From Litchfieldia alkalitelluris (GTDB taxonomy: Bacteria; Bacillota; Bacilli; Bacillales; Bacillaceae_L): a DNA stretch of 64,000 bases. Numbering within the stretch: the first letter of the stretch is position 1; every line of letters starts with the position of its first letter. The notes under the pieces were generated by a model. The model did no database searches and was not told where the DNA came from. It saw only the letters and a program-made list of their open reading frames with translations. Location: positions 1,205,452 through 1,269,451 of the forward strand of contig NZ_KV917374.1 of NCBI RefSeq assembly GCF_002019645.1. The letters run 5' to 3'. This document shows, piece by piece, positions 3,466 through 60,337 of this stretch. The translations under genes and the position numbers were made by a program.

Positions 3466-3610
3466 TGGAATGAGCGGAGAGCCACCTGACTCCTGCGGGA
3501 TATAGCGGTCCTCGTGGAGCTCAGGAAGCGATGAGGAGGCTCACGGGCCGCCCCGCGGAAAGCAAGTGGATTGCAGCGAATGGAGCTCCCAATCTAAGTT
3601 ATTTTCAATG
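3466..3610 (+). repeat. GC-rich dispersed intergenic repeat, copy A
   Basis: The 400-base gap between 3322 and 3727 is mostly this element. It runs from TGGAATGAGCGGAGAGC through ACTCCTGCGGGATA, GAGGAGGCTCACGG and CCCGCGGAAAGCAAGTGGA to CTAAGTTATTTTCAATG. The same ordered blocks recur near 10.4, 28.9, 38.1 and 60.3 kb. It stands out by its high GC in an AT-rich background and contains no gene. Confidence 0.8.
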
Positions 3611-13021: not shown

Positions 13022-13062
13022 TCCTTCATCCTCCTAAGGTTGTCCGTTTTTCTTAGAGGCTA

Positions 13063-13085
13063 TTTTCGTAAACTTTGTTGCTTTT
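13063..13085 (+). repeat. Short dispersed motif, copy 1
   Basis: The motif TTTTCGTAAACTTTGTTGCT with flanking bases lies in the 217-base gap between the two ykoST-like genes. It recurs with 22 of 23 matches at 52303-52325 and in weaker form near 49625. Confidence 0.6.
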
Positions 13086-26288: not shown

Positions 26289-26427
26289 AGAATCTTTTCT
26301 GAAGGATTTGTTTTATTGAGCTAATTTAAAGTAAATGTAAGAATAGATTAGAATGGTCGGGAAAAAGCCAAACTACTTGGTTTAACGGGTTCGGATTTCG
26401 AATAAAAAAACTAACCTCTGATTTTTT

Positions 26428-26618
26428 ATAAGGGGAGTTTTTCCCGTTAGCCTGCAGAATTGGGCTTGGTTAGGGTGATATAAGGGAAGTTTTTCCCGTT
26501 AAGTCAAAGCAAAATGGTCCATTTTAATGTTTTTCGCGTAAATAGGGAGAATTTTTCCCTTTATTTACTCTATATTTGGTGCTATTTCCTCAATAAGAGG
26601 AATTTCTTCCCTTATTTT
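26428..26618 (+). repeat. Composite four-hairpin repeat, array 1
   Basis: Four purine/pyrimidine palindromes lie at 26428-26449, 26480-26501, 26540-26566 and 26592-26618, of the type ATAAGGGAAGTTTTTCCCGT. Centre spacings are about 52, 62 and 52 bases. Spacer sequences resemble those of array 3 in the same orientation (for example TGTTTTTCGCGTAAATAG before the third hairpin). This array occupies the gene-free region 26289-26968, where otherwise only hairpin terminators were seen. Confidence 0.8.
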
Positions 26619-26683
26619 TGTAGCTTATTTGCTGGCAACTTTTGTAGATTTGTAAATCGCTAACCGGTGCTTATATTGGGATG

Positions 26684-26722
26684 AAAAATGCTTGAAGCAT
26701 ATGTCTCCGAGCATTTTTTTTC
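26684..26722 (+). terminator. Terminator-like stem-loop
   Basis: AAAAATGCT / AGCATTTTT form a 9-bp stem with a 17-base loop and a long T run. No gene immediately precedes it; it may end transcripts reading through from yusU. Confidence 0.55.
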
Positions 26723-26871
26723 GGATTACTTGCCATATTGCTTTTTAATTTTGGTGCGAATTACTATAGAAAAAGCAATGTTAATTCATATTTCACTTCA
26801 AAACAAAACCAGTTATACAGGTTTATAGCGTTTTTTTTATAAACTCTAAAGTTTATGTGAATAGCTTAATA

Positions 26872-28823: not shown

Positions 28824-28952
28824 CTTTCCATTCGCTGCGATCCATGCCCTTTCCGCGGGCGGTACGGTGAGCCTCCTCGTCGCAGGCTCCTGCGGGGTCT
28901 CACTGTACCCCGTGTATCCCGCAGGAGTGGCATTGCTCTCCGCTCATTCCAA
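28824..28952 (-). repeat. GC-rich dispersed intergenic repeat, copy C (inverted)
   Basis: Read on the minus strand: TGGAATGAGCGGAGAGC, CACTCCTGCGGGATA, GAGGAGGCTCACCG, CCGCGGAAAG and CGCAGCGAATGGAAAG, the same block order as copy A. It carries a self-complementary pair CTCCTGCGGG / CCCCGCAGGAG. It fills the gap after fadM and may serve as its 3' end. Confidence 0.8.
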
Positions 28953-35966: not shown

Positions 35967-36080
35967 AATTATAGTATTTTCTCAACTAGTCGATAAAAAG
36001 AGATTCTGATTTCCGCATCTGAGATAGTAAAGAGTTCACTTTTATCGGTTATGGCATCAGGTTAGGCACTTTGATCTACT

Positions 36081-36272
36081 AAATAGAGGGGAAAATTCCC
36101 CTTAATTTATTAATAACACCGAAAATAGCTTAAATAGACGGAGAAATTTCTTTTATTTGACTCTAAAAGCTTGGAAATAGATAGTTTTGGTTTGTATAGA
36201 GGGAAAAATTTCCCTTATTTCCCCCAAAACGAGCTCTAATCTTCAATTAACGGAAAAATCTCCGCTTATTTA
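36081..36272 (-). repeat. Composite four-hairpin repeat, array 2 (inverted)
   Basis: Palindromes lie at 36081-36109, 36132-36158, 36195-36220 and 36245-36272, with centre spacings of about 50, 62 and 52. The first is AGAGGGGAAAATTCCCCTT. Read on the minus strand, its spacers match array 3 in order, for example AGCTATTTTCGGTG against TGCTATTTTCAGTG and ATCTATTTCCAAGCTTTT against ATCTATTTTCACGTTTTT. It lies in the 470-base gap after gcvH, where nothing else was seen apart from the gcvH terminator. Confidence 0.8.
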
Positions 36273-38130: not shown

Positions 38131-38222
38131 GTTGACCTGAGATTACTAAGGAGATAAAGCGACTCACACTCCGCCCGCGGAAAGCGGGGAGATCGAAGCG
38201 AAGGGCACTAAGTTATTAACAG
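38131..38222 (+). repeat. GC-rich dispersed intergenic repeat, copy D (degraded)
   Basis: GACTCACACTCCGCCCGCGG, AAAGCGGGGA, ATCGAAGCGAAGGGCA and CTAAGTTATTAACAGG correspond to the 3' half of copies A and C with deletions. It lies in the 350-base gap between yusE and the MFS gene. Confidence 0.6.
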
Positions 38223-39963: not shown

Positions 39964-40007
39964 CACCCTCGTACTTAAAAATCACATACAATCACATATA
40001 TATTTAC

Positions 40008-40113
40008 TCTTATTTAGAGAGGTGGAGGGATGTGCCCTATGAAGCCCGGCAACCGTCAACATTTGTTGAAATGGTGCCAATTCACACAAAGCGTTAGCTT
40101 TGGGAAATGAGAG
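40008..40113 (+). ncRNA. SAM-I riboswitch (S-box leader)
   Basis: The S-box core is clear: AGAGGTGGAGGGA, TGTGCCCTATGAAGCCCGGC and AACCGTCAAC near the 5' side, then TGGTGCCAATTC and the 3' closing strand. P1 pairs CTCTTAT (40008-40014) with ATGAGAG (40107-40113). It is followed by a terminator hairpin upstream of metNPQ. Bound SAM stabilises the aptamer and favours termination, so the transporter is made when methionine/SAM is low. Confidence 0.95.
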
Positions 40114-49410: not shown

Positions 49411-49825
49411 TTTATAAAGATTTTTAGTCGTGCCGATTTTTTGCCGACTTTGGCTTTTAGTGTAAGAGGCGAACTTCGTCTTCTTCTATTAGTACGGTAA
49501 TACTGGTATCACACTCTATTCAAGTAATAAGTTAACCCTCATACAGTTTATGCTTCATTAACACCCCAATTATTATTAAGGTGAATTTTCATCATATTAG
49601 TTATGTATCCTTTAATTAATGCTGCTTGCGTAAACTTTGTTTCTGGTGAAAGCAAAGTGGATTGTCATTTTTTCTTCTAAAACGTAAAATAAAATACCGA
49701 AAGAACAGTGTTCTTTATTTTAAAACTAGGTCAAAAATCATCAATCTTTTAAAAAAAAGCATGCATTCATAATAGTGCAATTGCTAAACAATTGCATAAT
49801 AGCTTTATAAAAAAAGTTGAAAGGA
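49411..49825. other. Gene-free region before the cupin pseudogene
   Basis: No convincing reading frame on either strand. A weak copy of the short dispersed motif (GCGTAAACTTTGTTTCTGG) lies near 49628. The rest is AT-rich sequence with no assigned signal. Confidence 0.5.
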
Positions 49826-50379: not shown

Positions 50380-50548
50380 ATGGAATTTGGTGACAAATCA
50401 AAAAAGAGACTGTCCTTAGGGTACCCTACAAACAACTGTCGGTAGGGTGCTAATTTGGTTGACAATTATAATACCAAAAGTAATGTTATTTCTATGTAAA
50501 CATTACTATATCAACCATAATTGCTAATTGAGTAACCAGTGATAGAAA

Positions 50549-50736
50549 AATAAGGGGAGATTTTACCGCTAGATGCAGATTAAAGTCTGATTTTGGGAAA
50601 ATAGAGGGAGTTTTTTCCTCTATTTAACAAAAAGATATCTATTTTCACGTTTTTGGAGTAAATAAGAGCAATTTCTCCCTCTATGTTTGCTATTTTCAGT
50701 GGTATTAAATAATTAAGGGAAATTTTTACCTCTAAA
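50549..50736 (+). repeat. Composite four-hairpin repeat, array 3
   Basis: Imperfect palindromes lie at 50549-50571, 50598-50626, 50660-50685 and 50711-50736, with centre spacings of about 52, 61 and 50. The second is AATAGAGGGAG / CTCTATTT in outline. Spacers match those of arrays 1 (same direction) and 2 (inverted). It sits in the 586-base gap between two pseudogenes; the rest of that gap shows only the hairpin at 50852. Confidence 0.8.
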
Positions 50737-50851
50737 AATCTCAAATAGCAGTAAACTAAACCTAGTTTCATTGTTTAAGAATGTAAAAGTCTGACCAACT
50801 ATTCGGCCAAAAGATACTTTAGTTGGAACAAGACAATACAGTTAACAAAGA

Positions 50852-52247: not shown

Positions 52248-52302
52248 GATATTTCAAGATTGATGATTGTTTTTACAACGTTTATGATATTTATAAATGG
52301 AT

Positions 52303-52325
52303 GTTTTCGTAAACTTTGTTGCTTT
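52303..52325 (+). repeat. Short dispersed motif, copy 2
   Basis: GTTTTCGTAAACTTTGTTGC with flanks, 22 of 23 identical to 13063-13085. It ends at the yunF ribosome binding site, so it is part of the yunF leader. Confidence 0.6.
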
Positions 52326-60278: not shown

Positions 60279-60337
60279 GTGGAAAGCGAGTGGATTGCAG
60301 CTCATGGAACTTCGCTAACTAAGGTATTTTCAGGTTA
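60279..60337 (+). repeat. GC-rich dispersed intergenic repeat, copy E (3' fragment)
   Basis: GTGGAAAGCGAGTGGATTGC, then AGCTCATGGAACTTCGC and CTAAGGTATTTTCAGG, aligns with the 3' end of copy A (GCGGAAAGCAAGTGGATTGC ... CTAAGTTATTTTCA). The GC-rich 5' part is missing. Confidence 0.65.

Follow-up and report, generated by a model that had tools for sequence, protein, structure and literature searches.

The window (the whole stretch of Litchfieldia alkalitelluris DNA that was analysed, 64,000 nucleotides) contains three arrays of four palindromes each, with centres about 51, 62, and 51 bp apart. I lean towards the view that these are DNA-level arrays of four sites for a dimeric protein, carried as non-coding passengers by elements mobilised by Tn7491-like transposons and by elements derived from an IS91-type transposon. 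Two half-sites of the form TAAnSGGA would make up a 21-bp dyad, a putative site for a dimeric DNA-binding protein, and four such dyads, separated by about 5, 6, and 5 helical turns and so all on the same face, would bring four dimers into one nucleoprotein complex. The array would ride as a non-coding passenger of non-autonomous transposons. Carriers of the type found in the window (R), as well as carriers in other genomes that resemble a second type (S), have TAAnnnGTTC repeats and would be moved in trans by IS1-like transposons related to Tn7491. Their transposase would make its 9-bp staggered cut in the loops of intrinsic terminator hairpins, which would bring the arrays to the 3' ends of genes and between convergent genes. 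The main class of S arrays, S1, would ride instead in internally deleted derivatives of an IS91-type element. Copies that bear the array would be favoured, the complex helping the element to be mobilised or kept.

A 21-bp dyad, TAAnSGGAnnnnnTCCSnTTA, fits all 12 palindromes of the window at 11 to 14 of its 14 informative positions. The features are these:

26426..26618, plus strand, 193 bp: array 1, R-type with four dyads, among the 28 aligned copies and recovered by the model searches
26429..26449, no strand: dyad site 1 of array 1, motif score 14 of 14
26481..26501, no strand: dyad site 2 of array 1, motif score 13 of 14
26543..26563, no strand: dyad site 3 of array 1, motif score 12 of 14
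26594..26614, no strand: dyad site 4 of array 1, motif score 12 of 14
36080..36271, minus strand: array 2, R-type, with dyads at 36084, 36135, 36197, and 36248
50548..50742, plus strand: array 3, R-type, with dyads at 50551, 50602, 50663, and 50714
26383..26815, plus strand, 433 bp: probable carrier transposon of array 1, subfamily A, with left end TAACGGGTTC and right end ..CCAGTTA
26684..26718, no strand: terminator-like hairpin (inverted repeat) within the carrier of array 1

The first-pass annotation had described three arrays of evenly phased palindromes with corresponding spacers. The arrays are real: motif scoring gives steps between dyad starts of 52, 62, and 51 in array 1, 51, 62, and 51 in array 2, and 51, 61, and 51 in array 3, that is, 51-52/61-62/51 in all three, and the spacers do correspond once array 2 is reversed. 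Eleven further places in the window score 11 or 12 of 14 for the dyad motif, so lone weak dyads mean little and arrays mean much. The ends of the carrier of array 1 were read by eye and from the alignment of subfamily A, having been missed by strict searches for inverted repeats and duplications. The 9-mers that flank it are identical at only 6 of 9 positions; supposing that they are a 9-bp duplication, it has decayed. By eye, no terminal inverted repeat could be recognised around either array 2 or array 3.

The three arrays are a small sample of what the host genome holds, at least 87 R-type and at least 43 S-type arrays, the two types having different spacers and the same spacing. All counts of arrays in the host genome are lower bounds. 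BLAST with array 1, in which 40 of 95 candidates were scored, gave at least 47 matches, arrays 2 and 3 not being among them. A model of R arrays, made from 28 copies (26 of 30 fetched loci, with the window's own sequence used for array 1, together with arrays 2 and 3), gave at least 149 matches in the host genome, with 150 of 4663 candidates scored. Run over the fetched host regions, it finds at least 116 copies at 35 bits or better, at least 87 of them above 100 bits; above 60 bits there are 90 after removal of one overlap with an S-type array, three of the 90 being partial. The weaker matches make up the second type, S, with other spacers, and a model of its own finds 43 copies at 131 bits or better. 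The exact dyad pattern occurs at 114 places in the host genome, the reversed pattern at none. With short matches extended to the ends of the model, 82 of the 87 R arrays measure 190-193 bp. Arrays also occur in tandem, four of them 290-297 bp apart at C1:3892258-3893332 and three about 257 bp apart at C1:4923133-4923836.

Beyond this genome, R-type arrays are present in 12 of 17 genomes and 3 of 4 genera of the family, and in 24 of 199 genomes, 16 of 97 genera, and 11 families of the order, nearly all of those listed having a length of 190-193 bp. One genome of another genus, G004, has undergone a recent burst, with at least 80 array matches, many of them near-identical. A search of plasmids and phages with a single 400-base query gave no array match. 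The genome-wide search with a model built from the arrays, which the first-pass annotation had suggested, thus turns up many copies beyond the three, in the family and in other families of the order as well.

The arrays invite comparison with REP and BIME sequences, which are likewise repeated extragenic palindromes, many of them between convergent genes, and which are associated with a RAYT transposase. One paper on such sequences is PMC3733652. The difference is that here there are four dyads at fixed spacing inside longer elements. Single or variably clustered palindromes, the trait of REP/BIME, are not what is found: of the dyads that score at least 12 of 14, 777 lie inside arrays and 21 outside, compared with 31 in the reversed control, which is chance level. 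Nor was a lone dyad found near a regulator gene, whether among near-matches in 1.13 Mb of partly overlapping sequence or among the exact matches listed. Another element to compare is bcr1, from the Bacillus cereus group (PMC2267715), also described as a dispersed intergenic repeat, of about 150-170 bp and with folding potential; it belongs to another host group and is likened here on that description alone.

What carries the array can be seen around recent copies. The R core sits in longer repeats that vary by subfamily; their arms differ, and between subfamilies it is mainly the core that aligns. Recent-looking R copies have TAAnnnGTTC.. inverted repeats and 9-bp duplications, and a strict search for both is passed by 18 of 158 copies, many old R copies (arrays 2 and 3 among them) having no recognisable ends. 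A scan of fetched loci gave 42 insertions with a 9-bp duplication at least 8/9 identical. Twenty-one are array carriers (19 R, 2 S-like) and 15 are transposase-bearing elements; the rest are three with passenger genes (L208, L228, and L229), L260 and L279, which both represent a single insertion containing a transposase fragment, and L206, taken to be spurious. The array carriers among them are 0.48-1.2 kb long, except for L203, which contains a nested insertion sequence. The suggestion that the arrays might be a non-autonomous mobile element has come out well, given the terminal inverted repeats and 9-bp target duplications of the carriers and the homology of their ends to those of transposase-bearing partners. 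Judged by their sequence, R carriers are non-autonomous transposons of the Tn7491 type, which is to say of a known kind.

Such carriers resemble MITEs, as these are described in the accessible passages of PMC10969869: they are short and non-autonomous, with inverted repeats, target duplications, and high copy number. They differ in being most conserved at the centre rather than at the ends, in containing an array of fixed length, and in that carriers of the array have more than one origin. Some of their relatives hold a passenger gene in place of the array. In this they recall mobile insertion cassettes, short non-autonomous elements akin to MITEs. The relatives in question (L208 560-1558, L228 467-1853, and L229 516-1427) have the same inverted repeats, and their passengers encode a VOC-type protein, DUF2975, and DUF3995, respectively. 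In L225 (449-2677) the same inverted repeats enclose an array together with three ORFs of no assigned family. In L012 (about 1677-1853), an insert of about 177 bp lies within the fourth dyad; it has ends GAGACTGTCGATTAA and an apparent GTTTC duplication, and it is itself MITE-like. The thought that the dyads are copies of the transposon tips, since both start with TAAnnG, was dropped: by eye, a carrier with TAAGTAG ends has no TAAGTAG dyads.

A search for large elements with the repeats of R carriers led to L224, in another genome, which has a small ORF, a gene for a 653-aa transposase, and a 112-aa ORF. The transposase has no Pfam match, its matches to the IS1 family falling below curated cut-offs, and the small upstream ORF matches no family. 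Among the best 25 matches, the ends of L224 are homologous to those of the array carriers L170, L183, L220, and L231 (right end against L170, E 1.4e-32), and the ends of other transposase-bearing elements to those of L186, L188, L194, L199, and the S-like L235 and L204 (the last with L245, E 5.7e-25). Shared ends suggest that the partners move the carriers. The host genome itself has one intact copy of the transposase, with duplication CAATTTATG; the best named relative is in Cytobacillus firmus (94%). No solved structure was matched by sequence, and the transposase as predicted (mean pLDDT 69) resembles DDE transposases in fold only weakly.

The array and the transposase gene appear in different elements. 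None of 16 transposase-bearing elements contains the array; three of the 16 (L242, L252, and L253) have broken genes, and one transposon is represented twice, from two sites, as L282 and L283. Among 20 array carriers, L203 being left aside, the array is complete in 19 and partial in the other, L124. Nor do the two go together by genome: a transposase match occurs in 5 of 24 array-bearing genomes of the order sample and in 25 of the 175 others, showing no association, and of 16 array-bearing genomes tested separately, 15 gave no match and G004 gave broken pieces. An earlier idea, that the dyads serve as titration sites for a repressor of the partner transposon, was dropped, the partners having no run of such sites.

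Relatives of the host transposase occur in 114 plasmid records, 90 of them from Enterococcus. In both plasmid records that were opened, dfrG adjoins the relative, which is labelled 'insertion element protein' or 'hypothetical protein'. The inverted repeat of the plasmid relatives is the repeat published for Tn7491, a 3.3-kb dfrG transposon (PMC10763498). Relatives of Tn7491 and R carriers share the TAAnnnGTTC.. type of repeat, the 9-bp duplication, and subterminal homology; the array carriers differ in that they lack a transposase gene and have the four-dyad array instead. The first-pass annotation knew of no named element with this layout. That stands for the array, for which no description was found in the open-access literature, and fails for the R carriers, which belong with Tn7491, judging by the accessible passages of the Tn7491 paper; those passages mention neither terminators nor arrays (PMC10763498).

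The duplications reveal where these elements go. With the flanks of each insertion joined around one copy of the 9-mer and a stem score centred on it (cut-off at least 7), the 9-mer lies in the loop of a hairpin with an A-tract, a stem, and a T-tract in 33 of 40 insertions (the 42 minus L206 and L279). The same stem-score test at six offset centres gives 3, 5, 4, 3, 5, and 2 of 40. Array carriers, transposase-bearing elements, and elements with passenger genes all contribute terminator-loop cases. The placement of the duplication within the loops of intrinsic terminators accounts for the excess of arrays between convergent genes: by ORF-based gene calls, and with R and S pooled, 42 of 105 arrays have convergent flanks and 2 of 105 divergent, the corresponding figures for the 115 other gaps of 50 bp or more in those loci being 6 and 30. 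The second copy of Tn7491 lies between convergent genes, according to the accessible part of its description (PMC10763498), which fits the preference for terminators found here. No description of terminator-loop targeting by Tn7491-type transposons was found in the open-access literature. Group IIC introns are another kind of mobile element that sits at terminators. Empty sites were sought as well, and none was found in three relatives of the same genus; G004 itself yielded only two halves. L224 (480-560 and 3540-3580) also sits in a terminator hairpin, its flanking 9-mers being inverted rather than direct copies.

S arrays have a different setting. The 43 S loci, taken with 700-bp flanks, are split by their spacers into 38 S1 and 5 S2. 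Strict inverted repeats on both sides are found in 0 of 38 S1 and 2 of 5 S2 loci (reversed control, 0), and the strict rule of inverted repeats plus duplication is satisfied by 0 of the 43 S loci of the host genome, a duplication being present in 0 of 5 S2. A loose inverted-repeat pattern occurs in the flanks of 22 of 38 S1 loci compared with 15 of 38 in the reversed control and was not used by itself. At 18 S1 loci the flanks are ragged and the array complete, a result biased by the use of the array as the search key. Near some S1 arrays lie what look like the remains of another kind of transposon: pieces like the N-terminal zinc-binding part of an IS91-type transposase are found at E <= 0.01 in 6 of 38 S1 loci, 0 of 5 S2 loci, and no locus in 20 shuffles. 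Three of the 38 still have them at E <= 1e-5, and 32 of the 38 show none at E 0.01. The longest match, at L157, has 79 residues, and Pfam PF14319 reaches E 0.018 on S1, which is below its cut-off. Unlike in an IS91-type element, the gene at these loci is broken, with the array inside the remnant.

S1 arrays are also set apart by polarity. Relative to replication they run in one direction in 38 of 38 cases, compared with 3 of 5 for S2 and 56 of 90 for R, the reference being an origin at about 0.3 Mb and a terminus at about 3.2 Mb, derived from GC skew and gene strand in the fetched loci; no S1 array falls in the uncertain zones. IS91-type elements, which have oriIS and terIS ends and a tetranucleotide target, are thought to insert through single-stranded DNA. 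A single polarity fits a transposon that inserts in this way, or else a polar function, and S1 as a whole would be derived from an IS91-type element. A sequence similar to a GC-rich dispersed repeat (..GAGGAGGCTCAC..GCCCCGCGGAAAGC..) adjoins two S1 arrays; the repeat itself occurs in both orientations in the window, at 3466-3587, 28827-28951, 38171-38209, and 60281-60311.

An alternative view, which I consider less likely, is that the array is a transposition enhancer, an internal site that aids assembly of the transposase or a helper protein on short elements, with no gain to the host and with old copies as relics. Its presence with the ends of several partner lineages speaks for this, as does its occurrence in recent bursts such as that of G004, where it is constrained even among young copies. 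However, all 16 of the transposase-bearing elements examined are without an array, so the reaction can do without one in cis, and the array also occurs with remnants of an IS91-type element, which is unrelated and would have a different transposase.

Averaged over 85 R copies, the palindrome score is 5.6-7.2 at the four places where centres are expected and 0.4-1.2 at five control places. For pairs of centres that both reach a score of 4, the median spacings in R are 51.25, 61, and 51 (n = 54, 53, and 38 copies), and those in S, measured in 14, 14, and 15 of 21 copies, are 51, 62, and 51. The S spacer that separates sites 1 and 2 is palindromic too, scoring 5.7 as a control place. The spacings are close to 5, 6, and 5 times 10.25 bp, which would allow all four dyads to lie on the same side of the helix. 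Information content averages 1.49 bits in dyad columns and 1.15 in spacer columns. R and S arrays may share descent, and their equal spacing need not be independent.

It is also conceivable that the array is transcribed and acts as four RNA hairpins (a leader, a 3' element, or a small RNA), though I regard this as improbable. The dyads are AT-rich palindromes and do fold as RNA. The folds of single array copies are better than those of shuffles (z -3.68, -3.97, and -1.68), and that of an entire 665-nt carrier is strongly so (z -10.05, 20 shuffles); terminator-like hairpins are present in carriers. Against this, the predicted minimum-energy structures differ from copy to copy, and RNAalifold on 28 copies recovers another, weak structure and not the four hairpins. 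No Rfam family reaches threshold over the arrays, and the spacings match turns of the DNA helix. Imposed on the same 28 copies, the four-hairpin structure pairs 80.8% of cells compared with 80.4% in shuffles, with changes on both sides in 8 pairs compared with 8.5. There is no base-pair covariation, all five measures lying inside the shuffled range. Slid controls have fewer paired cells (42.6-62.9%), which means that the palindromes are real and has no bearing on covariation. A covariance model was made and searched with, and the idea of an RNA structure family was rejected, its consensus fold not being four hairpins and its pair counts being those of shuffles; model R1 acts mainly as a sequence model, the structural reading having failed.

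These results bear on what the first-pass annotation had offered. Structured RNA leaders or 3' elements fare badly, on the grounds of the RNAalifold result, the pair counts, and the silence of Rfam, and the compensating differences noted in the hairpins are no commoner than in shuffled columns. Of the outcomes that it said would count against it, three regions only or a lack of covariation together with random spacing, neither came about: the copies are many and their spacing is fixed, covariation being absent all the same. Its third option, a protein-binding array, is the best reading of the core, in view of the lack of covariation, the conserved half-sites, the helical phasing, and the same layout in two spacer backgrounds. 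To go by the sequence pattern, a protein presumably binds the dyads, and would do so as a complex.

The core is also better preserved than what surrounds it. Within one subfamily of six copies, its identity is 0.839 compared with 0.687-0.689 in the arms, and it has 0.59 gap openings per 100 columns compared with 2.65-2.87, making gaps four to five times rarer. In the burst of G004 (11 copies, chosen for an intact left arm from 23 array loci examined), the core has an identity of 0.978 and zero gap openings in 10,505 pair columns; the left arm has 0.940 and 1.26 gap openings per 100, and the right arm 0.808 and 0.31. With core identity higher and gaps rarer than in the arms, the array is constrained, at least in the moving lineage. 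Selection after insertion need not be the source of its conservation, which could lie in the active lineage. That the array is a selfish relic without function, the centre of small non-autonomous transposons conserved by descent from a few recent sources, would suit the patchy distribution and the bursts and is nonetheless the least credible alternative, considering that mainly the core aligns between subfamilies whose arms differ, that core gaps are four to five times rarer than those of the arms and wholly absent among the 11 young copies, and that S arrays keep the layout despite other spacers.

If the array is a set of protein sites that travels with transposons, it may serve either its carrier or its host. 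One may go further, tentatively, and suppose a portable docking module for a chromosome-associated protein, taken up by two unrelated transposon classes (Tn7491-like and IS91-like) and installed at about 130 places in one genome, many at terminators, where it would serve chromosome-wide binding or insulation, with transposases of the Tn7491 type, including the one that spreads dfrG, targeting the loops of terminator hairpins. No description of the array as a module of fixed length, present also beside the remnants of a second transposon class, was found in the open-access literature. The case links a transposon family with a clear choice of target, the loops of terminators, and with a clinically known resistance transposon among its members, to a non-coding passenger that holds its length almost to the base pair across 11 families of a single order and that has been reused with an apparently unrelated class of transposon. 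If the terminator-loop target holds, then the family's insertion sites become predictable, and it is clear why the elements are mild for their hosts. If a host protein binds the array, then a DNA-organising or regulatory protein of these bacteria would so far have gone unrecognised.

Two other features of the window were seen in passing. A repeat around TTTTCGTAAACTTTGTTGCTTT occurs at 13049-13084, 49611-49646, and 52290-52325, and also at L217, in the genome of another family. A SAM riboswitch (Rfam RF00162) lies at 40007-40113.
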